38,657 nt of DNA from Candidatus Tabaqchalia intestinavium (GTDB lineage Bacteria > Bacillota > Clostridia > Oscillospirales > CAJFTT01). Location: positions 1-38,657 of the forward strand of contig CAJFTT010000028.1 of NCBI GenBank assembly GCA_904420005.1. The letters run 5' to 3'. Each line of letters begins with the position of its first letter. Within the stretch, counting starts at the first letter, position 1. Made by a program: the position numbers and the translations under genes. Positions 1 through 9,801 of the stretch are shown here, one piece after another. Under the pieces are notes generated by a model that was not told the origin of the DNA, searched no databases, and was given only the letters and a program-made list of their open reading frames with translations.

Positions 1-74
1 AAGGAGGTCTTTTTTTCTCCAATTGACGCTTTCGCTTTGCCTCCTCCACCGGCACGGCCGGTGGTTGCCTCGCC

Positions 75-111
75 AAAACGAGCAAACGGATTTTTTCCGT
101 TTGCTCGTTTT
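75..111. terminator. Strong intrinsic terminator, probably bidirectional
   Basis: Perfect 16-bp stem (75-90 with 96-111) around a T5 loop. The right arm ends in TTTT on the plus strand and the left arm begins with AAAA, so it can stop transcription from either side. No gene lies between it and the window start, so it probably serves a gene outside the window. A smaller 8-bp hairpin (CCACCGGC / GCCGGTGG, 46-64) lies just before it. Confidence 0.75.
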
Positions 112-287
112 TATGTTCAATATCTGTCATACTAAAAGTGAGGCGGGAAAAACACCGACAGAAACCGAGGCAGGAAAAGACAGAACAGGAGTACGGAGGA
201 AGAACGGAAGCAGGCCGAAACAGTCGGAAGATTCCCGACCTTGCCGCCTGACGAAACTTCGAACCTTTCGTCGGGCAGGTGCTGCGG

Positions 288-321
288 GCGGCGTCCCCTT
301 ATAAGAGGGCGCCGCTTTTTT
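288..321 (+). terminator. Intrinsic terminator with T6 tail
   Basis: GCGGCG (288-293) pairs with CGCCGC (310-315). The stem continues inward with one mismatch through a TCCCCTT/AAGAGGG arm, and six T residues follow at 316-321. A weaker hairpin (GACGAAA 250-256 / TTTCGTC 266-272) precedes it. No convincing coding sequence lies upstream between 112 and 288, so the transcript it ends may be non-coding or may start outside the window. Confidence 0.6.
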
Positions 322-389
322 GCATTTTTAAGAGAGTTCATCATCTGTCATATTAAAGATAGAGATTTGAATGATGAAAGGAGTGGAAA

Positions 390-523
390 AGCAGCAGCCT
401 GCCTTGACGATAAAGGCGGCTAAAGGGTTCGAAGAACAGCAGCCTGTCCAGACGGATAATGGCGGCAAACGGTTCGAAGAAGCAGCGACCTGTCCAGACG
501 ATATGGCGGTAACTGGTTCGAAG
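390..523. repeat. Three imperfect 45-bp tandem repeats
   Basis: Copies occupy 390-434, 435-479 and 480-523 (45, 45 and 44 bp). Each carries GCAGC near its start, then CCTG, a short CC...GG segment, GGCGG, and ends in GGTTCGAAG. The 44-bp third unit breaks any reading frame through the repeats, so they are unlikely to be a protein repeat. They lead directly into the stem-loop array at 527-731 and may be part of the same element. Confidence 0.7.
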
Positions 524-526
524 TCA

Positions 527-731
527 GCACAGCAAGCCCGAAAAGGCTGTGCGTCTCTCCCGCCAGAAGCGGGAGAGACGAGCGACACTGGTAGCCGCGG
601 GAGCGGCGTACCGTGGAGCGAACATGGGCAGAACGATTACCCGGAGATTTCGAAAAAATCGCCGGGTAAACGGAACTGCCAGCGGCAGTGGAGTGGAATT
701 TTTAGAAGGCCTCGACGGCCTTCTAAAAATT
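527..731 (+). ncRNA. Candidate structured RNA: six consecutive stem-loops
   Basis: Six hairpins lie almost end to end. They are GCACAGC/GCTGTGC (527-533/546-552); a 12-bp stem, loop CAGAA (552-563/569-580); a bulged stem CAC-T-GGTA-GCCGC with GCGGC-G-TACC-GTG, loop GGGA (586-598/603-615); TTACCCGG-A-GATTT with AAATC-G-CCGGGTAA, loop CGAAA (637-650/656-669); ACTGCC/GGCAGT, loop AGC (675-680/684-689); and a perfect 15-bp stem, loop TCGAC (697-711/717-731) that resembles a terminator. The tetraloop- and pentaloop-like loops and paired bulges suggest RNA rather than a DNA site. Strand is a guess based on the terminator-like last hairpin, which is symmetric. No known RNA family was recognised. A DNA element of the BIME/attC type is the alternative. 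Confidence 0.4.
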
Positions 732-844
732 AAGAAAAGCCCATGAAATCGGGAAAACAGCACCGGGAAGCTGTCTAAAAAATCTCGTCAACGTGCCCAA
801 CAAAATTAGAGGGTGAAGCGCGCCTTTTTTTCGAGAGGTGAAAA

Positions 845-921: not shown

Positions 922-950
922 TTGAAAAACAGTCGATTTTAAGATAAAAT
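922..950 (+). promoter_or_regulatory. Sigma-A-type promoter of the putative protease
   Basis: TTGAAA (922-927) and TAAAAT (945-950) are separated by 17 bp, about 50 bp before the chosen start codon at 1000. The surrounding DNA is AT-rich, which raises the chance of a spurious match, but spacing and position fit. Confidence 0.6.
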
Positions 951-999
951 ATAAGCAGTTATCTACAAATGAATCGGATGCCAAGAGGTGAAAAAGAAA

Positions 1000-2004
1000 A
1001 TGAAAGAAATTAAAGTCCAAATTAATCCTTGTCTGGAATTAATGAATAGTATTCTCTTAACAAGTAGATATAATGAGTTAACTAAGCCTTACATTGGGTA
1101 TGGGCTTATGACAGATACAGAAAATGAATATACCTACTCAATAAAATCTTTTTTTCAAAATTATAAAAATCATAAAATCTATGAAGTTATCGAAAATATG
1201 ATACCCCATGGTTTTACTTTTTCACGGCCTGTGGAAATAGCTTTGTCATTAGATAGCAGGGATCTTTCTATTCGGTTCCCCTTATCACCACTATGCATTG
1301 AATATAGTGGTGGTATTTTAAAAATTAATGAACTATTAGAATTATTAAAGGATTTCGTTAAAGAAAGTAATTATTTTAGCTTTTACGAAAGTAAATTGTA
1401 CTTCTATGACGCTTATATAAAGAAAGCAAATCAAACAATCCGATCAAATCCATTTGTATCAATATTGGAAAATGAATTTGGAAAACAGCAGAATTCGTAT
1501 AACTATGTTATTTCATCTCTTATGAAAGGGAATTTTGGCATTTGTTTTCAAAATAGTGTAACGAAAAAAGCAGATATATTTTCCGTTTTTTCTTCTGATG
1601 ATTTCAGCCTTTCCCCTGCTATTTTAATTCATGAGTATTCACATTCTTTTATAAATCCGTTAACAGAAAAATACCATGACATCGTGCAAAAATATCAAGG
1701 AACTTATGAAATATTAGCTAAATATAAGTTACCTAATTATCTGTCAGGTTATGAAGGTTGGGAAGAATGTGTTAATGAACATTTAGTTAGAGCAATGACT
1801 ATATATATACTCAGAAAATGTCAATATACTGAATTGGCAGATCAGTTATTGAATAACGATTTATATTGTGGGTATAGGTACATTCCTCAAATTCTTGAAA
1901 GATATAAATATTATGACAGCAATCGTAATTTGTATGCTAATTTTGAATGTTATTATCCTATACTATTAAATGTTTTTTCTAATTATATTGCCTCTGCCGA
2001 ATAA
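1000..2004 (+). CDS. Putative HExxH zinc protease, DUF4932-like
   Basis: A 334-residue protein with no obvious signal peptide or membrane helix. H211-E-Y-S-H215, followed by SFINPL, is a gluzincin-type zinc motif; a downstream segment GWEECVNEHLVRA (E260) could supply the third, glutamate ligand. The HExSHxFxNP pattern recalls DUF4932 proteins; this family call is from memory and moderately sure, and the substrate is unknown. ATG 1000 is preferred because AGAGGTG (984-990) sits 9 bases before it; the in-frame GTG at 988 lies inside that ribosome-binding site. The gene is strikingly AT-rich, with AAA/AAT/TTA/ATA codons, amid very GC-rich neighbours, which points to horizontal acquisition. It is monocistronic, with its own promoter upstream and a hairpin terminator at 2117-2150. 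Confidence 0.75.
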   Translation: MKEIKVQINPCLELMNSILLTSRYNELTKPYIGYGLMTDTENEYTYSIKSFFQNYKNHKIYEVIENMIPHGFTFSRPVEIALSLDSRDLSIRFPLSPLCIEYSGGILKINELLELLKDFVKESNYFSFYESKLYFYDAYIKKANQTIRSNPFVSILENEFGKQQNSYNYVISSLMKGNFGICFQNSVTKKADIFSVFSSDDFSLSPAILIHEYSHSFINPLTEKYHDIVQKYQGTYEILAKYKLPNYLSGYEGWEECVNEHLVRAMTIYILRKCQYTELADQLLNNDLYCGYRYIPQILERYKYYDSNRNLYANFECYYPILLNVFSNYIASAE

Positions 2005-2150: not shown

Positions 2151-2231
2151 ACAAGCCAACTATACATCCTTATTAAGCCGGGCCCTTGGGGCCGCACAGG
2201 CTTTATGCATGTCGAGAAGAAAGCTGCGACA

Positions 2232-2373: not shown

Positions 2374-5300
2374 TCATATCACCTCGCACACCACCTCGTG
2401 ATCGCGGCCGTCAAGCGGAACCCATTCGGCGGGCTGCCCGTCGACCGTCAGCGCGGCGCGCCCCGTGCGGCGGATGGCCAGGCGCACTTCCCCGCCGCCC
2501 CGGCGCAGGCGCGCCGCCACCTCCTGCCAATCCTGCGGCAGCAGCGGCGCAAGCAGCAGCCGGTCGCCCCGGCAGCGCAGGCCGAGCAGCTCCTCGGTCA
2601 GCAGGCGGAAATACCAGCCCGCCGCGCCGGTATACAGGCTCCATCCCCCGCGCCCGGCGCAGGATAGATTGGAATAAATATCCGCCGCGATATAATACGG
2701 TTCGATGGCGTAGCGCGCGGCATCCTCGGCGGTCATGGCGTGGTGCAGCGGGTCGAGCATCCTCGCCAGCCGCCAGGCCTCCTCCGTCCGCCCGGCGCGC
2801 GCCATGGCCACAGCCAGCCAGATGGCGCCGTGGGTGTATTGCCCGCCGTTTTCCCGGATGCCGGGGAGATAGGAACGGATATAGCCCGGGTTGATGGCGG
2901 CGTGCTGGTAGGCCGGAGTGAACAGGCGGATGATGCCCAGCGAGTCGTCCACCAGTTCCCGCTGCGCCGCGTCGAGCGCGGCGGCGACGCGCGTCCCGTC
3001 GGGCATGCCGCACAGCACGGCGAAGCTCTGGGGCAGGCAGTCGATGCGGCCCTCTTCCGCCTCGTGCCCGCCCATGGGCTGCCCGTCGTCGGTGAAAGCG
3101 CGCAGGTACCATTCCCCGTCCCAGGCGACGCGATCGACGGCCTCCCGCAGCGCGGCGGCGCGCTGGCGCAGCTTCTCCGCCTCCCCCGGCTCGCGCTTGT
3201 CGCACAGCGGCGCGAACGCGTCGAGCACCAGGGCATAAAACATCGCCAGCCACACCGATTCCCCGCGCCCGCGGTCCCCGACGGCGGAAAAGCCGTCGTT
3301 CCAGTCGCAGGTGCCGATGAGCGGCAACCCGTGCTCGCCGAGCTTATTGGCGCAGGCGATGGCGCGCAGGCAATGGCGGAAAACGGGCTCCCGCAGCGCG
3401 CTGCGCCGGGTGGTCATATATTTCTCTCCTTCGCCGTCGCCCAGCGTGTCGCCCTCCAGATAGAAGGCTTCGGCGTCGAGCAGGCTCTCATCGCCCGTCA
3501 CTTCGACATAACGGGCCGCGGCGTAAGGCAGCCAGAGCAGATCGTCGCTGCAGCGGGTGCGCACGCCGCGCGGGGGCTGGCCGGGGACTTCATGCCACCA
3601 GTGCAGCACATCCCCTTCCGCAAACTGCCGCGCCGCGGCGCGCACGATGTGCTGCCGGGCGACGCGGGGGCTGTGCAGCAGCAGCGCGCAGACGTCCTGC
3701 AGCTGGTCGCGGAAGCCCCACGCCCCGCCGCATTGGTAAAAGGCCGCCCGCGCCCGCACGCGGCAGGCGAGCGTCTGCCACGGCAGCCAGGTGTTGATCA
3801 TCAGATTGAGCCGCCGGTCAGGCGTCTCCACCGTCAGCGCCCCGGCTTCAAAGCCCGGGATCGCATACGGCTCCCGCCGCGCCCGCAGATGAGAAACAAG
3901 GCGCAGCGCCCCGGCGCGCGAGCGAGAGAAACCGAGGAAAAACGTCACGCCTGCGGGCGACGGCGCGCCCGCCGTCAGCTCGACGGACAGCGCCATGCAG
4001 GGGTCAACCGAGCAGGCAAGGCCCTCCTGCCGCCAGTGCCCCGCGAGAAACGCGCCGCGCGACACCGCGGGTACAGCGTCCTCCCGGTCGCTCGCCAGCA
4101 GCATCCACCCGGGATATTCCGTATTCCAGTTGTTTTTCGCGAGCAGCGCGCCGTCCTGCGTTTCGAACCAGACATGCCGCGCGGCGCGGCGCGTCACGCC
4201 CAGCACCGGCTCGGCGTAATAGGCAAGGTGAATCTCCTGCGGCGTCTGCGTCTCGGCCGTGACGGCGACGCGCTTGGCAGGGTAGCGCCCGCAGACCTCG
4301 ACCCGAATGCGGAAGGCAATGCCGCCCGCTTCCGAGCGGTAAACGGCCGCGCCGGGCGTGAATTCGGCCGCCGCGTTGGCGAGCAGATTGTAGATTTTTC
4401 CGCCGATAGAGGCAAGCAGCATCTCCCCCTGGTTATCCAGCAGCGGGTCGTTGCTCCAGGGGGTGAGCTTATTCTCCCGCGAGGAGAGGGCCCAGGTGAA
4501 GCCCAGCGAGCGGTCGGAGACAAGCGTGCCGAAAGCGGCGTTGGCCAGCACGTGGCACCAGGGCATCCGGGGCTCGGGCTCGGTGTGCGGGATGAGCACG
4601 CGGCCGCCTTCCAGCGCGGCGCGGCCGGGGATGGTCAGCGCATCTTCGGGCAGCGTGCAGGCGGTGGGTGCCGCCGGCAGCCGCTCGGCGGGGGTGTATT
4701 TTTTCCCCGGCGGCGTGATGCGCAGCATCATCGGCGGCGCGACGTAAGCGGCCACCGCGCGCAGCAGCGTGTCCATCTCGGCATGCAGCGACACATCGAC
4801 GCAGTAAACCCCGCCCTTGACGCCCAGCAGATAGTCCATCCCCTCCTCCTGCGCGACCTCGCGGATGGCCCGGGCGATGGGGCGCGTATATTCCCCGCCC
4901 TCCCGGAAGGAGAAAACCAGATCGAACCGCACGCCGCGCAGCTGCAGCGCGCGATGAATGCGCAGGAAACTGCGGATTTTCGCGCGTTCTTCGGCCGTGG
5001 GCAGCTCCGCGAGCACGACGGGCAGGTCGCCGGAGATGCCCACGCTCCACAACGCAGCGACGCCGGCGCGGTTTTTCCCCAGCGCTTCCACGCTCTCCTT
5101 GACCGGCTGCTTGGGATAGGTGAGATACGGCAGCATGATCGACGCGACGGTATTCTCCATCTCGTCGGTCATCGACAGGTTGGCGAGATTTTTCGCCGCC
5201 TGCTTGGCGGAGGCGAGCGCCGCGGCATATCCGCGGGAACGCATCTCCACAGCGCGCGACTGCGCCTCGGCCGCAAAGGACCCGACCGCGAGATAAAACG

Positions 5301-8300
5301 TGACGGCGCGCTGGCTGCGGGGCGGCAGCGTTACGCGGCATTTGAACGCGAAGCAGGGGTCAAGCACGGCGCCCACCCCGCCGGAGAAATTCCGGTCGAA
5401 CGCGCCGGGCAGCGAATGCACGCCCTGCGGGCGGGAGAGCACCTGCTCTTTGCGGGTTTCCATCTCCACTGCTTCCTCCGCGTCCCAACAGACGGCCAGC
5501 GCCATCGGTTCCTCCTCCCCGCGCGGCCGGCGCGAGAAGGTGACGCAGCTGGAGGACGGCCGCGCCGAGCTGACGAAAAGCTTGGAAAACGCGCGGTGCG
5601 CGGAGAAATCCGCGTCTTTCTGCAATACCGGCTCAAAATAGATCAGCACCGTCGCCTGCTGGCGGCGGCCGGTGAGGTTCTTGACGATGACCTGCCGCGC
5701 CTCGCCCGACACCTTGCCGTGCACGCAGGCGCGCAGACAGACGTCCAGGCTGGGCTTGTGCGCGAAAAAGGAGGCTTCTTCCGCGGAGAATTCCGCCTGG
5801 TGGTTGTAGCCATCCTTATAAAACGGGGCGTGGGTGGCCGACAGCAGCGTGCCGCCGTGGCGCACGAAGGCATAAAACCCCGCAGGATCGCGCAGCAGAT
5901 CGTCGGTGCGGCGCGTCACGTCGGCCTCGCGCCAGGCGGAATGCGCCGCGCCGCAGTCGGAGAGCGTGAGGGTATAGTCGCCGTTGGTGAGCACGTGGGC
6001 GCGCGGGGACAGCGGCGTGATCTCGTCATATTCGGCGCGCTCCATCGCCGCGCGGCCCGGTTTCTCCGGCGGGGACGCGGTGCGCACGTCGTCAAAGACC
6101 ACCGCGCCGGACGGGATTTTCTCCATCAGCAGCTCGACGGCGCTGTTCATGCTGCTGTTTTTGAGGAAGCGGCGGGGGAAGAGGTCGCCGAGCAGGGTAT
6201 TGGCGACGGCGACGAGGCTCATGCCGACGTGGTGGGACATATAGCTTTTGACCACGGCGACGCCCCCGCCGGTACGCCGCGCGGTGAAGTCCGCCGCTTC
6301 GTAAAAGCCGTACCGCCCGGTCATGCCCAGCTCGCGCAGGCGGTGCAGGTTCTTGATCGCGCCCAGCCGGTCAAACGGCAGCGCGAGGAACGTCGAATAG
6401 GGCGAGACGACCAGCTCCGCGTCCATGCCGCGATGCAGCGCGAGCTTCTGCACGCCGTGCGCTTTATATTGATAGTTGAGCTGGCTGTCGAAGCCGTAAA
6501 ACGCGCTCTCGGAAATGCCCCACGGCACGCCGGCGCGCGCGGCGCGGCGCTTCTGGCAGAACAGCGCGAATTTCAGCGCTTCCGACAGCAGCGACCCGTC
6601 ATAAACCGGCAGCAGCAGCGGCGGCATGAAATATTCAAACATCGTGCCCGTCCAGGACACAGGGCCGCGATAGCCCTTTTCCCGGGCAAGCATGCGCCCC
6701 AGCGCCGCGAACAGGCGCTTGTCGGTCTGGCGCGTGGCGATGGCAAAATAGACGGTGAGCAGCGCCTCGCTCATCAGCAGATCATAATAGGAGGTGGACA
6801 TCTCTCCCGTCACCATGTCGAAGCCGATGTGCATCAGATGCCGGCGCTTGTTATAAAAGGCGGAGATCTGCGTCTGGCCGATGAGGGCCTCCAGACGGTC
6901 GCCCAGCGTCCACAACCGCGCGTCCTCGCTGTAATATTCCCGGATCCCCTCGCGCAGCGCGACGAGGCAGCAGACGAAATTGCCGCTGTCGACGCTGGAG
7001 ATATACGCGGGGGAGAGGGGCTTGAGCGTGCGCGTGTCGTACCAGTTATAGAGATTGCCGTTCCATTTTTTCAGCTTCTCGACGCTCGTCACCGTATGCA
7101 GCAGCCGCTCGGTCATCTGCTCGGTGTCGATGAGCTTGAGGTCGCGCGCCGCGAGGGTGGACAGCAGCAGCAGACCGATGTTGGTCGGCGAGGTGCGATG
7201 CGCGACGCGCTGCACCGGGCTTTCCTCGAGATTGTCCGGCGGGAGGAAATTGTCGTCCTCCCCGGCGGTGTCCTCGAAGAAATGCCACATGGCGGAAGCA
7301 TAAGAGAGCAGCTCCTCGCGCATGTCTTCGCTGAGCTTCGGCTCGGCGCGGCGCGCGGGCCGTCCCCAGAGGAAAGCGAGGATCGGCAGCAGCAGCCACA
7401 GCGCCGCAAGCGGCAGCGCGAGGAAATTGCGCGAGGGCAGCGCGAGCATCAGCCCGGCATAGACGATGCTCGGCCAGAAGGCGCGAAACAACGCGTTGGC
7501 GCTGCTGACCCGGCGGCGCTCGCCCTCGGCGGCCGTGGCCCATTCGAGGAGCTTTTTCCCCGTCAGCTGCCGCCAGACGGCGCGCCAGGCCGCGTCGGCG
7601 AGGGTCAGGGCGTTCTGCGCCGCGATAGCGAGCGTGACAAAACAGCGGGCGAAGGCGGCGGAGACGTTGCTCATGACCTTGTTGTGGTATTTGCTCATGA
7701 GCATTTTCGGCCCGCCGGTGACCAGCTCCCGCAGGCCGGCGAACAGATCCCCCGCGAAGAAGGAGACGGCCGCGACGCCCGCCAGCAGCGCCGCCTGCCC
7801 CAGCGGCAGCAGCAGCGAGAGCGCGATGAGCAGCAGCGAAACCGGCGGCGTGACGACGCGGCGCACGTTATCGAAGAGCTTATAGCGCGACACCGCGCTC
7901 TGCCACCGGTCGAAGATATATTTCGCATTCTGAATGTCGCCGCGGGCCCAGCGGTGCAGGCGGGAAAGATAGGCCGGCAGATTGGAAGGATAGCCGTCGC
8001 ACAGCTCGACGTCGGAAACGTAGCCTGCGCGCAGCAGGTTGCCCTCGAGGATGTCATGGCTGAGGATGCGCTCCTCCGGGAAGGCCCCCTCCATGACCGC
8101 GGTGAAGGCGTCCAGGTCGATCAGGCCCTTGCCCGCGAAGATGCCCTCGTCGAACAGGTCCTGGTAAATGTCGCCCACCGCCGCGTCATAGACCGAGATG
8201 CCGCCCTTACCCGCCATGATGCGGGAGAATGCGGTTTTGCCGTAGGACGCGAGATCGACACCCATGCGCGGCGCGAGGATGGCGTGGCCGGCGACGACGC

Positions 8301-9801
8301 GCCCACCCTCGAGCCGCGCGCGGCCCAGCGGATGCAGCATGACGCTCACCAGCTCGCGCGCCGTGTTCATCAGCAGCTGGGTGTCGGCATCGAGCGTGAG
8401 GATGAAGGCCGTCTTGCGCAGAAAGCGCAGGTCGCCTTCGTAGGTCTTGATGGACGTCTCCCCGCCGCGGATGAAGTGCGCCAGCTCCAGCATGGCGCCG
8501 CGCTTGCGCTCCCAGCCGGCGTAGCGGCCCTGCGTCTTGCACCAGACGCGGTCGCGCAGGAAGAGGTAAAACCCGCCGCCGTATTTTTCGTTGAGCGCGC
8601 GCACCGCCTTTTTCGCGGCGCGGCGGATGCTTTTGTCCTCCGGCGCGTCGGGCGTGTCCTTTTCCTTGAAATCGGCCAGCAGGCCGAAGGCGAGATTTTC
8701 CGTGCGGTTAGAATGGTAAAACTGCTCCAGCCGGCGCGCAAAATCCTCCACCGCATCGGTGGAGGTGAGCAGCGCCGAGATGACGACCAGTGTGCGCCCT
8801 TCCGGCGGGATGCCGTCGGTCAGGTCGAGACGCGGCATATATTCCGCAGGGGTGACGCGCAGGAAAATGTGATCGAGAACAGGGCGGCAGATCTCCCAAA
8901 ACGGCAGAAACAGCAGCGCCGCCACCAGCCACCAGCCGGAGAGCGCGCCCGTGAGCAGCGTCAGCGCGAGCGGGCACAGCCAGGTCAGCGCCATCCAAAG
9001 TTTGCCGCGCCGGGGGCGCCGGCCGCCCGGCGGGCTTTTGAGCAGGTAATAGCCGATGTGGTCGCTGGGCGCGCCCGTTTCGGCCAGCGCGAGCAGCGCC
9101 TCGGCCGTTTCCTGCTCGCTTTTGTGCATGCGGCGTGCGAGAGCAGCCACCTCCGCGCGGTACAGGGCGCGGCTTTTCTCCTCCATTTTGGGGTAAACGC
9201 CCGCCGGGTCGCGCAGCAGCGTCTGCTCGACGGCGCTGTGCTTCTCGACCAGCTCGTCAAGGCGCAGCACGCCAAGGAAGCGCAGCGACGTCACGGCGCC
9301 CGCGATCAGATCCTCCTGATAGTCGGCGGGGTCGGTCGCGCGGCTGGCGGCGAGGATGAGCGCGCCGCGCAGCATCGGCAGCAGCAGCTCGAATTCCCGG
9401 CTTGAGAGAGCGCGCGCCGTCTGCACCTCCTCCAGCGCCGCGTCGAGCGCCTCGGTCGTCACCCGGGCGCGCTCCTGCTCGACGAGCGCCCGGCACAGCA
9501 GCCAGACCGCCGGCCGGCCGTCGAGCGCCGGGGCGGGCCGGGCGCGGCGCAGCTCGCGCAGCAGGCTGTGCCCCTCTCGCTCGAGAATATAGAAATTGTC
9601 GCACAGCCATTCCAGCACGACGCTGCGTCCATCGCGGGCGGCCAGCGCAGCGTGATACCGCCGGCGCAGCAGCCCCAGCGCGGCGCGCACTTCCCCCGCC
9701 ACGCCGGAAAGGCGCGCCACGCGGCCGTCCTCCGGCGCGCGCATGCGGTCAAGCAGCGCCTGCATGGTGGTTTGTTCCCTGTTTGCAGCCTGTTTCGTCA
9801 T
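2374..9801 (-). CDS. Cyclic beta-glucan synthase-like protein (GT84 + glycoamylase-like + GH94)
   Basis: A 2475-residue membrane protein with the layout of NdvB/Cgs cyclic beta-1,2-glucan synthases, which polymerise and cyclise glucan from UDP-glucose. Residues 1-260 are a soluble head; hydrophobic segments lie near 265-310. The GT84 glycosyltransferase core has the DxD motif D471-A-D473 and the LHRWARGD motif, followed by more membrane segments. A glycoamylase-like domain follows (WTGTMFEYFMPP, GISESAFYGFD). Two GH94 N-terminal-like beta regions precede a GH94 catalytic barrel with CDWNDG (D2166, D2169), where the phosphorylase general acid is expected. It is somewhat shorter than the roughly 2800-residue proteobacterial enzymes. 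ATG 9801 is preceded by a GGGGAT-like site; a Met 12 codons further in is possible. Whether the product is cyclic 1,2-glucan or another beta-glucan cannot be told. It stands alone; base composition matches the neighbours. Confidence 0.85.
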   Translation of the reverse strand: MTKQAANREQTTMQALLDRMRAPEDGRVARLSGVAGEVRAALGLLRRRYHAALAARDGRSVVLEWLCDNFYILEREGHSLLRELRRARPAPALDGRPAVWLLCRALVEQERARVTTEALDAALEEVQTARALSSREFELLLPMLRGALILAASRATDPADYQEDLIAGAVTSLRFLGVLRLDELVEKHSAVEQTLLRDPAGVYPKMEEKSRALYRAEVAALARRMHKSEQETAEALLALAETGAPSDHIGYYLLKSPPGGRRPRRGKLWMALTWLCPLALTLLTGALSGWWLVAALLFLPFWEICRPVLDHIFLRVTPAEYMPRLDLTDGIPPEGRTLVVISALLTSTDAVEDFARRLEQFYHSNRTENLAFGLLADFKEKDTPDAPEDKSIRRAAKKAVRALNEKYGGGFYLFLRDRVWCKTQGRYAGWERKRGAMLELAHFIRGGETSIKTYEGDLRFLRKTAFILTLDADTQLLMNTARELVSVMLHPLGRARLEGGRVVAGHAILAPRMGVDLASYGKTAFSRIMAGKGGISVYDAAVGDIYQDLFDEGIFAGKGLIDLDAFTAVMEGAFPEERILSHDILEGNLLRAGYVSDVELCDGYPSNLPAYLSRLHRWARGDIQNAKYIFDRWQSAVSRYKLFDNVRRVVTPPVSLLLIALSLLLPLGQAALLAGVAAVSFFAGDLFAGLRELVTGGPKMLMSKYHNKVMSNVSAAFARCFVTLAIAAQNALTLADAAWRAVWRQLTGKKLLEWATAAEGERRRVSSANALFRAFWPSIVYAGLMLALPSRNFLALPLAALWLLLPILAFLWGRPARRAEPKLSEDMREELLSYASAMWHFFEDTAGEDDNFLPPDNLEESPVQRVAHRTSPTNIGLLLLSTLAARDLKLIDTEQMTERLLHTVTSVEKLKKWNGNLYNWYDTRTLKPLSPAYISSVDSGNFVCCLVALREGIREYYSEDARLWTLGDRLEALIGQTQISAFYNKRRHLMHIGFDMVTGEMSTSYYDLLMSEALLTVYFAIATRQTDKRLFAALGRMLAREKGYRGPVSWTGTMFEYFMPPLLLPVYDGSLLSEALKFALFCQKRRAARAGVPWGISESAFYGFDSQLNYQYKAHGVQKLALHRGMDAELVVSPYSTFLALPFDRLGAIKNLHRLRELGMTGRYGFYEAADFTARRTGGGVAVVKSYMSHHVGMSLVAVANTLLGDLFPRRFLKNSSMNSAVELLMEKIPSGAVVFDDVRTASPPEKPGRAAMERAEYDEITPLSPRAHVLTNGDYTLTLSDCGAAHSAWREADVTRRTDDLLRDPAGFYAFVRHGGTLLSATHAPFYKDGYNHQAEFSAEEASFFAHKPSLDVCLRACVHGKVSGEARQVIVKNLTGRRQQATVLIYFEPVLQKDADFSAHRAFSKLFVSSARPSSSCVTFSRRPRGEEEPMALAVCWDAEEAVEMETRKEQVLSRPQGVHSLPGAFDRNFSGGVGAVLDPCFAFKCRVTLPPRSQRAVTFYLAVGSFAAEAQSRAVEMRSRGYAAALASAKQAAKNLANLSMTDEMENTVASIMLPYLTYPKQPVKESVEALGKNRAGVAALWSVGISGDLPVVLAELPTAEERAKIRSFLRIHRALQLRGVRFDLVFSFREGGEYTRPIARAIREVAQEEGMDYLLGVKGGVYCVDVSLHAEMDTLLRAVAAYVAPPMMLRITPPGKKYTPAERLPAAPTACTLPEDALTIPGRAALEGGRVLIPHTEPEPRMPWCHVLANAAFGTLVSDRSLGFTWALSSRENKLTPWSNDPLLDNQGEMLLASIGGKIYNLLANAAAEFTPGAAVYRSEAGGIAFRIRVEVCGRYPAKRVAVTAETQTPQEIHLAYYAEPVLGVTRRAARHVWFETQDGALLAKNNWNTEYPGWMLLASDREDAVPAVSRGAFLAGHWRQEGLACSVDPCMALSVELTAGAPSPAGVTFFLGFSRSRAGALRLVSHLRARREPYAIPGFEAGALTVETPDRRLNLMINTWLPWQTLACRVRARAAFYQCGGAWGFRDQLQDVCALLLHSPRVARQHIVRAAARQFAEGDVLHWWHEVPGQPPRGVRTRCSDDLLWLPYAAARYVEVTGDESLLDAEAFYLEGDTLGDGEGEKYMTTRRSALREPVFRHCLRAIACANKLGEHGLPLIGTCDWNDGFSAVGDRGRGESVWLAMFYALVLDAFAPLCDKREPGEAEKLRQRAAALREAVDRVAWDGEWYLRAFTDDGQPMGGHEAEEGRIDCLPQSFAVLCGMPDGTRVAAALDAAQRELVDDSLGIIRLFTPAYQHAAINPGYIRSYLPGIRENGGQYTHGAIWLAVAMARAGRTEEAWRLARMLDPLHHAMTAEDAARYAIEPYYIAADIYSNLSCAGRGGWSLYTGAAGWYFRLLTEELLGLRCRGDRLLLAPLLPQDWQEVAARLRRGGGEVRLAIRRTGRAALTVDGQPAEWVPLDGRDHEVVCEVI

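Follow-up and report, generated by a model that had tools for sequence, protein, structure and literature searches.

The DNA analysed here (the window, 38,657 nt from Candidatus Tabaqchalia intestinavium) carries near its start a terminator-type hairpin, two promoter-like motifs, a structured block, a set of tandem repeats, an array of hairpins and a single gene. The array at 527-731 and the neighbouring gene had been singled out in an initial annotation. The features are as follows; the terms cassette and cargo anticipate the reading proposed below.

1-76, minus strand: end of a multi-copy IS-like element, which interrupts the cassette left end at the contig start; copies 96-100% identical lie at four other contig ends.
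75-111, plus strand: left-end terminator hairpin with a 16-bp stem, a T-tail on the plus strand and an A-run in front (bidirectional); several pairs show compensatory changes across copies.
115-136, plus strand: first copy of GTTCANNATCTGTCATAYTAAA, conserved in homologues, with the extended -10-like TGTCATACT at 125-133.
137-321, plus strand: structured block 1, a candidate small RNA ending in a terminator-like hairpin at 284-321 (fold z = -2.6 for 139-325; homologue alignment).
336-357, plus strand: second copy of the TGTCATAYT motif, with TGTCATATT at 346-354.
389-523, plus strand: three tandem repeats of about 45 nt, each with GGTTCGAAG at its end (repeat alignment).
527-552, plus strand: hairpin 1 (predicted fold; also in copies L114, L115 and L118, with a related form in L189).
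553-579, plus strand: hairpin 2, 11 bp (predicted fold).
582-619, plus strand: hairpin 3, with a GGGA (GNRA-type) tetraloop (predicted fold).
623-745, plus strand: closed subdomain with a closing 7-bp stem at 623-629/739-745 (CAUGGGC/GCCCAUG).
634-672, plus strand: hairpin 4, inside the subdomain.
675-689, plus strand: hairpin 5, inside the subdomain.
697-731, plus strand: hairpin 6, 15-bp stem, inside the subdomain.
746-795, plus strand: conserved tail with a small hairpin (ACAGC...GCTGT) at 757-774; end of the shared scaffold in the alignments of copies.
922-950, plus strand: sigma-70-like promoter TTGAAA-17-TAAAAT ahead of the cargo gene, by consensus match only.
988-2004, plus strand: cargo gene, 338 aa, DUF4932 (PF16286, E = 5.6e-43), with a HEYSH motif, zinc-peptidase-like.
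2117-2150: right-end hairpin, 15-bp perfect stem, terminator-like; counterparts in L115, L118 and L190.
2157-2173, minus strand: right terminal inverted repeat, ATAAGGATGTATAGTTG on the minus strand, paired with left-end ATAAGGATGTTAAG in four copies.
2188-2204: right arm of a split host terminator, whose left arm lies on contig C52 just outside the cassette (17-bp hairpin of the joined flanks).

All six stem-loops previously described at 527-731 are present, with a pair probability above 0.9 for nearly all pairs. The fold energy of 500-760 is -122.8 kcal/mol, whereas shuffled sequences average -78.3 (z = -9.3, reached by 0 of 200 shuffles), and among 385 windows of 200 nt the strongest fold significance on the plus strand corresponds to 501-700. 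The structure is larger than had been noticed: it continues upstream into the repeats and block 1, and the closing stem at 623-629/739-745 had been missed. As this stem encloses hairpins 4-6, the region is a branched domain rather than a simple array; the same topology is the minimum-free-energy (MFE) structure in L114 and L117. Copy L190 has CAAAGGCA and TGCCTTTG at the place expected for the closing stem, but its MFE favours another pairing and it was left uncounted. The final 15-bp stem exists as described. It had been called terminator-like, yet no T-run lies beside it on either strand, and thus it is not a canonical terminator; intrinsic-terminator-like hairpins are found instead at 75-111, 284-321 and 2117-2150.

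The earlier statement was that no protein-coding frame accounts for the array; a 120-codon open frame does cover 371-733. This frame is probably non-coding, since repeat 3 is shifted in frame relative to repeats 1 and 2 and the translation has no family match; a coding reading was rejected because of that frame break. Rfam returned zero matches at the gathering threshold and nothing credible at relaxed thresholds, which agrees with the view that the array belongs to no known RNA class, and neither tRNA nor tmRNA was detected. Type III toxin-antitoxin systems were considered and rejected, the gene downstream being DUF4932 (338 aa) and the array coming after the repeats. Upstream, the GTTCANNATCTGTCATAYTAAA core has only two matches genome-wide (115-136 and 336-357), one ahead of each block. 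The TGTCATAYT motif is promoter-like without a -35 element, and was missed by a consensus promoter scan. Hairpin 243-276 of block 1 presents the loop CUUCGAACC, which is complementary to the GGUUCGAAG repeats.

Homologous copies, at different genomic sites, were found in Ca. Falkowella caecavicola (several), in an uncultured Clostridia MAG (two) and, more distantly, in other MAGs. A pattern for the repeat unit, run on the genome collection, gave two tandem matches in Ca. Falkowella caecavicola (L042, which the array model scores at 204 bits) and further matches in a second contig of that MAG (L064) and in the uncultured Clostridia MAG (L071); inspection covered a minority of the other 48 repeat-unit matches. 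Whole-genome searches added further truncated or rearranged copies, as well as the distant L189, L190, L191 and L192. By blastn, 59 relatives, phages and plasmids yielded only the genome itself or short chance matches, and the array covariance model R2, run on 394 genomes of the order, recovered the genome itself and two short single-hairpin matches. Model R1 had a poor structure and its use was limited to that of a sequence profile. Many weak matches of R3 (about 30-40 bits) were discounted as likely to be ordinary terminators; those looked at include L193 and L202. Viral contigs contained a single match to the repeat-unit pattern, a chance one in a coding-looking region, and none to the end-motif and array-core patterns.

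The copies follow a common order: inverted repeat ATAAGGATGT; end terminator; two structured blocks, each behind TGTCATAYT; tandem 45-nt repeats (three in the window and L114, two in L115, one in L117 and L118); hairpin array; one cargo gene; usually a right-end terminator; and inverted repeat. Bounded in this way by ATAAGGATGT...ACATCCTTAT, the cassette measures about 0.9-2.4 kb and lacks a mobility gene. The left ends have the sequence ATAAGGATGTTAAG and the inverted right ends ATAAGGATGTATAG; an exact search for the end pattern in five genomes recovered four copies with paired ends and a single unrelated site. The scaffold always lies upstream of the cargo and in the same orientation. The cargo itself varies: DUF4932 in the window and L118, a GNAT acetyltransferase in L115, an AlkZ-like gene in L114 with a remnant of it in L117, and, by eye, an XRE-type regulator in L190. 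The DUF4932 gene, rightly described before as an AT-rich neighbour, lies in a cargo stretch that is 96% identical between the window and L118, two different species. Most of block 1 is inverted in L118 (2137-2030, G395:C4) between flanking inverted repeats, as compared with the other copies; the segment may be invertible, or it may have been rearranged by chance.

The outermost left 40 bp or so of the window cassette lie on contig C52 (87-149) of the same genome, and the IS-like element fills the gap. This element (window 1-76; contigs C11, C27, C29, C54 and C52 of genome G000) has a palindrome, CCACCGGC/GCCGGTGG, near its end and is IS200/IS605-like by eye. It adjoins a terminator-type hairpin at five of the five sites seen and seems to be a terminator-targeting element in its own right. 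In L118, the same cassette point is occupied by an IS-like insertion of another kind.

When the flanks of the window copy are joined, they form a 17-bp hairpin (AAAGCCTGTGTGGCC / GGCCGCACAGGCTTT). Joined flanks of L114 give a hairpin of about 25 bp, and those of L117 pair using G-U; pairing is absent in L115 and weak in L118 and L190. The true flank pairing ranked fourth among 720 permutations. Since the joined flanks form a single terminator hairpin in the window and two other copies, we conclude that the cassette inserted inside a terminator. The left-end terminator hairpin, immediately inside the cassette, is conserved, and the right-end one is present in four of six copies (window, L115, L118 and L190), which suggests that the cassette terminators replace the host terminator that the insertion splits. 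Neither an empty site nor an excised form was seen. Both the window copy and L190 lie directly behind argF (ornithine carbamoyltransferase, named by eye from its translation), which adjoins them at opposite cassette ends, the orientations being opposite. Just outside the window cassette, a 21-bp perfect inverted repeat (GAGAAACGGCAGGAAAACCGC) lies at 2232-2275; among 200-nt stretches of the minus strand, 2101-2300 is the most structured (z = -9.1). Further along, a 2475-aa ORF (2374-9801, minus strand) resembles by eye NdvB-type cyclic glucan synthases.

Copies L115, L116 and L191 have remnants of tyrosine-recombinase C-termini behind the left scaffold (VSRQLGHNRISVIAGHYL in L116), frame-broken in L115 and L191; the nearest intact relatives sit in other elements. 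More widely, a recombinase C-terminal remnant, an XRE-type regulator and an ORF starting MNYxxxIFxRxDxQQIREFLLHG recur at that place (L191 3045-3931, L189 3300-3780, L116 1771-2162). These sets, which vary by copy, are perhaps relics of an autonomous parent element. An integrase search found no cassette with an intact recombinase or transposase. It did yield an IME-type relative, L201, which by eye has a serine recombinase and a mobilisation-like protein as neighbours. Locus L122 seemed to be an autonomous copy and turned out to be unrelated.

Taken together, we consider it probable that the hairpin array is the conserved left portion of a mobile cassette bounded by inverted repeats and carrying exchangeable cargo. 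The proposal of an undescribed structured RNA holds insofar as the array has no Rfam family and its fold is conserved among homologues, but what lies here is part of a mobile element and not a free-standing RNA gene. A match to a repeated DNA element such as a BIME or an attC-like site had been named as an outcome that would speak against that proposal; a mobile repeated element comes close to it, while the array being single-copy in its own genome argues against BIME/REP sequences.

How such a cassette would operate can be outlined tentatively. It would be moved by a recombinase or transposase supplied in trans, the choice of enzyme being a guess as no cassette with an intact recombinase was found, and its own terminators would stand in for the split one, so that insertion would cost the host little. 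Still more tentatively, the two TGTCATAYT motifs may be promoters; block 1 may then be a small RNA of about 185 nt, ended by the terminator at 284-321, and the repeats and array either a second RNA or a long leader of the cargo, which might regulate or insulate transcription of the element. Judging from complementarity, loop CUUCGAACC of block 1 might also pair with the GGUUCGAAG repeats. The most far-reaching version, to which we give only a slight chance, is a structure-targeting class of cassettes in which the trans-acting enzyme would be directed to the loop of a terminator hairpin, with the cassette's own structured RNA or folded DNA aiding target choice, or controlling transcription via the restored terminators.

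Variable columns among the three full array copies are fewer in paired (17/150) than in unpaired positions (27/73; Fisher p = 2e-5). The covariation proposed as a check by the initial annotation is slight, with one pair (675/689, A-U to G-C) changed on both sides; as pair cells include 6 G-U and 8 A-C, these data do not tell RNA and DNA roles apart. Folding of the minus strand is nearly as strong (z = -9.1 vs. -9.3), so the fold by itself is no proof of RNA. Unpaired plus-strand bases within 527-745 number A34, G24, C8 and T3 (58/69 purines, 84%), which is a strong strand asymmetry, and five copies of TTCGAA fall within 258-654, where 0.45 would be expected (nine across the whole window). The purine-rich loops and the terminator-motif-block-terminator order favour a plus-strand RNA, and it is plausible, albeit unproven, that the predicted hairpins act as structured RNA.

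The fold significance, the purine excess, the abundance of TTCGAA and the lower variability of stems would all fit an ornate noncoding RNA gene under selection for its transcript, e.g., multimeric or trans-acting through kissing palindromic UUCGAA loops, the cassette being merely its carrier. We find this rather doubtful, as the array is truncated or lost in L115, L116, L118 and L191 while the ends persist, the repeat number varies from one to three, and just one double-sided change lies within the array. It is also unlikely, in our opinion, that the array is the hub of an insulator or antiterminator, a structured leader deciding polymerase passage through the element terminators. Terminators at both ends and internally, the constant position and orientation of the scaffold relative to the cargo, and the precedent of canT in Tn916 (PMC11658703) speak for it, but known antiterminators have no sequence or Rfam similarity to the array and the cargo seems to have its own promoter. 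We give similarly little credit to a decayed mobile remnant of no present function, with the fold a residue of repeats and palindromes: the broken recombinase frames of L115 and L191, the inverted block 1 of L118 and the IS-like insertions in two copies would be expected of decay, but the compensatory changes of the left terminator, the fewer substitutions in stems, the open DUF4932 frame and the near-identity of its cargo stretch across two species would not. A DNA-level role, i.e., single-stranded hairpins for recombination or transfer (attC-like or oriT-like), is quite improbable, for although both strands fold almost equally, A-C cells are as common as G-U and insertion targets are palindromic, the loop purine bias is confined to one strand, the array can disappear while the ends stay, and the cassette has neither relaxase nor integron integrase.

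Thus, the mobile cassette remains our preferred reading. It would represent an apparently unlisted family in gut Clostridia, which carries single genes from one species to another and seems to shelter in terminators while supplying its own. With the conserved structured scaffold it offers a concrete candidate for an RNA of mobile elements, and the case calls for caution, as long hairpin arrays spotted by eye may be scaffolds of mobile elements. No description of the cassette was found in the open-access papers searched.

Integron gene cassettes each pair one exchangeable gene with a structured non-coding region, a design shared by the elements described here. The present cassettes, in contrast, are scattered singly instead of arrayed and have inverted terminal repeats and a long 5' scaffold; no integron integrase was seen. 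ROOL, GOLLD and OLE (PMC12286853) are likewise long bacterial structures with many stems, found in mobile elements or the rumen, and palindromic loops could self-associate; the array is smaller, has no Rfam match and is known here as a predicted fold. Tn916 also carries an insulating terminator close to the left end of the integrated element, and its canT is a probable antiterminator RNA that would influence element transcription in cis (PMC11658703), but it is a full conjugative element with no similarity to the cassette in sequence or Rfam. The BrickBuilt MITE of Porphyromonas gingivalis combines a tandem minisatellite with predicted long stem-loops and is intergenic, often near terminators and without an Rfam match; it differs in its 23-nt repeats and phylum, and is not known to exchange cargo or to insert into terminator hairpins (PMC4596501). 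The closest parallel is with MICs, cassettes without transposase that carry passenger genes (PMC3129680). Like MICs and MITEs (PMC3129680, PMC10969869), the present elements have inverted-repeat ends and passenger gene(s), lack a transposase, are dispersed and are presumably moved in trans: ATAAGGATGT ends are paired in four copies, cargo genes are single, and the window copy has no mobility gene. An exact end-pattern search in five genomes found no parent IS with matching ends. What sets the cassette apart from MICs and MITEs is its long conserved structured scaffold, its end terminators and its location in terminator hairpins. The combination of scaffold, insertion into a terminator loop and cargo exchange is apparently undescribed among transposase-less cargo elements.
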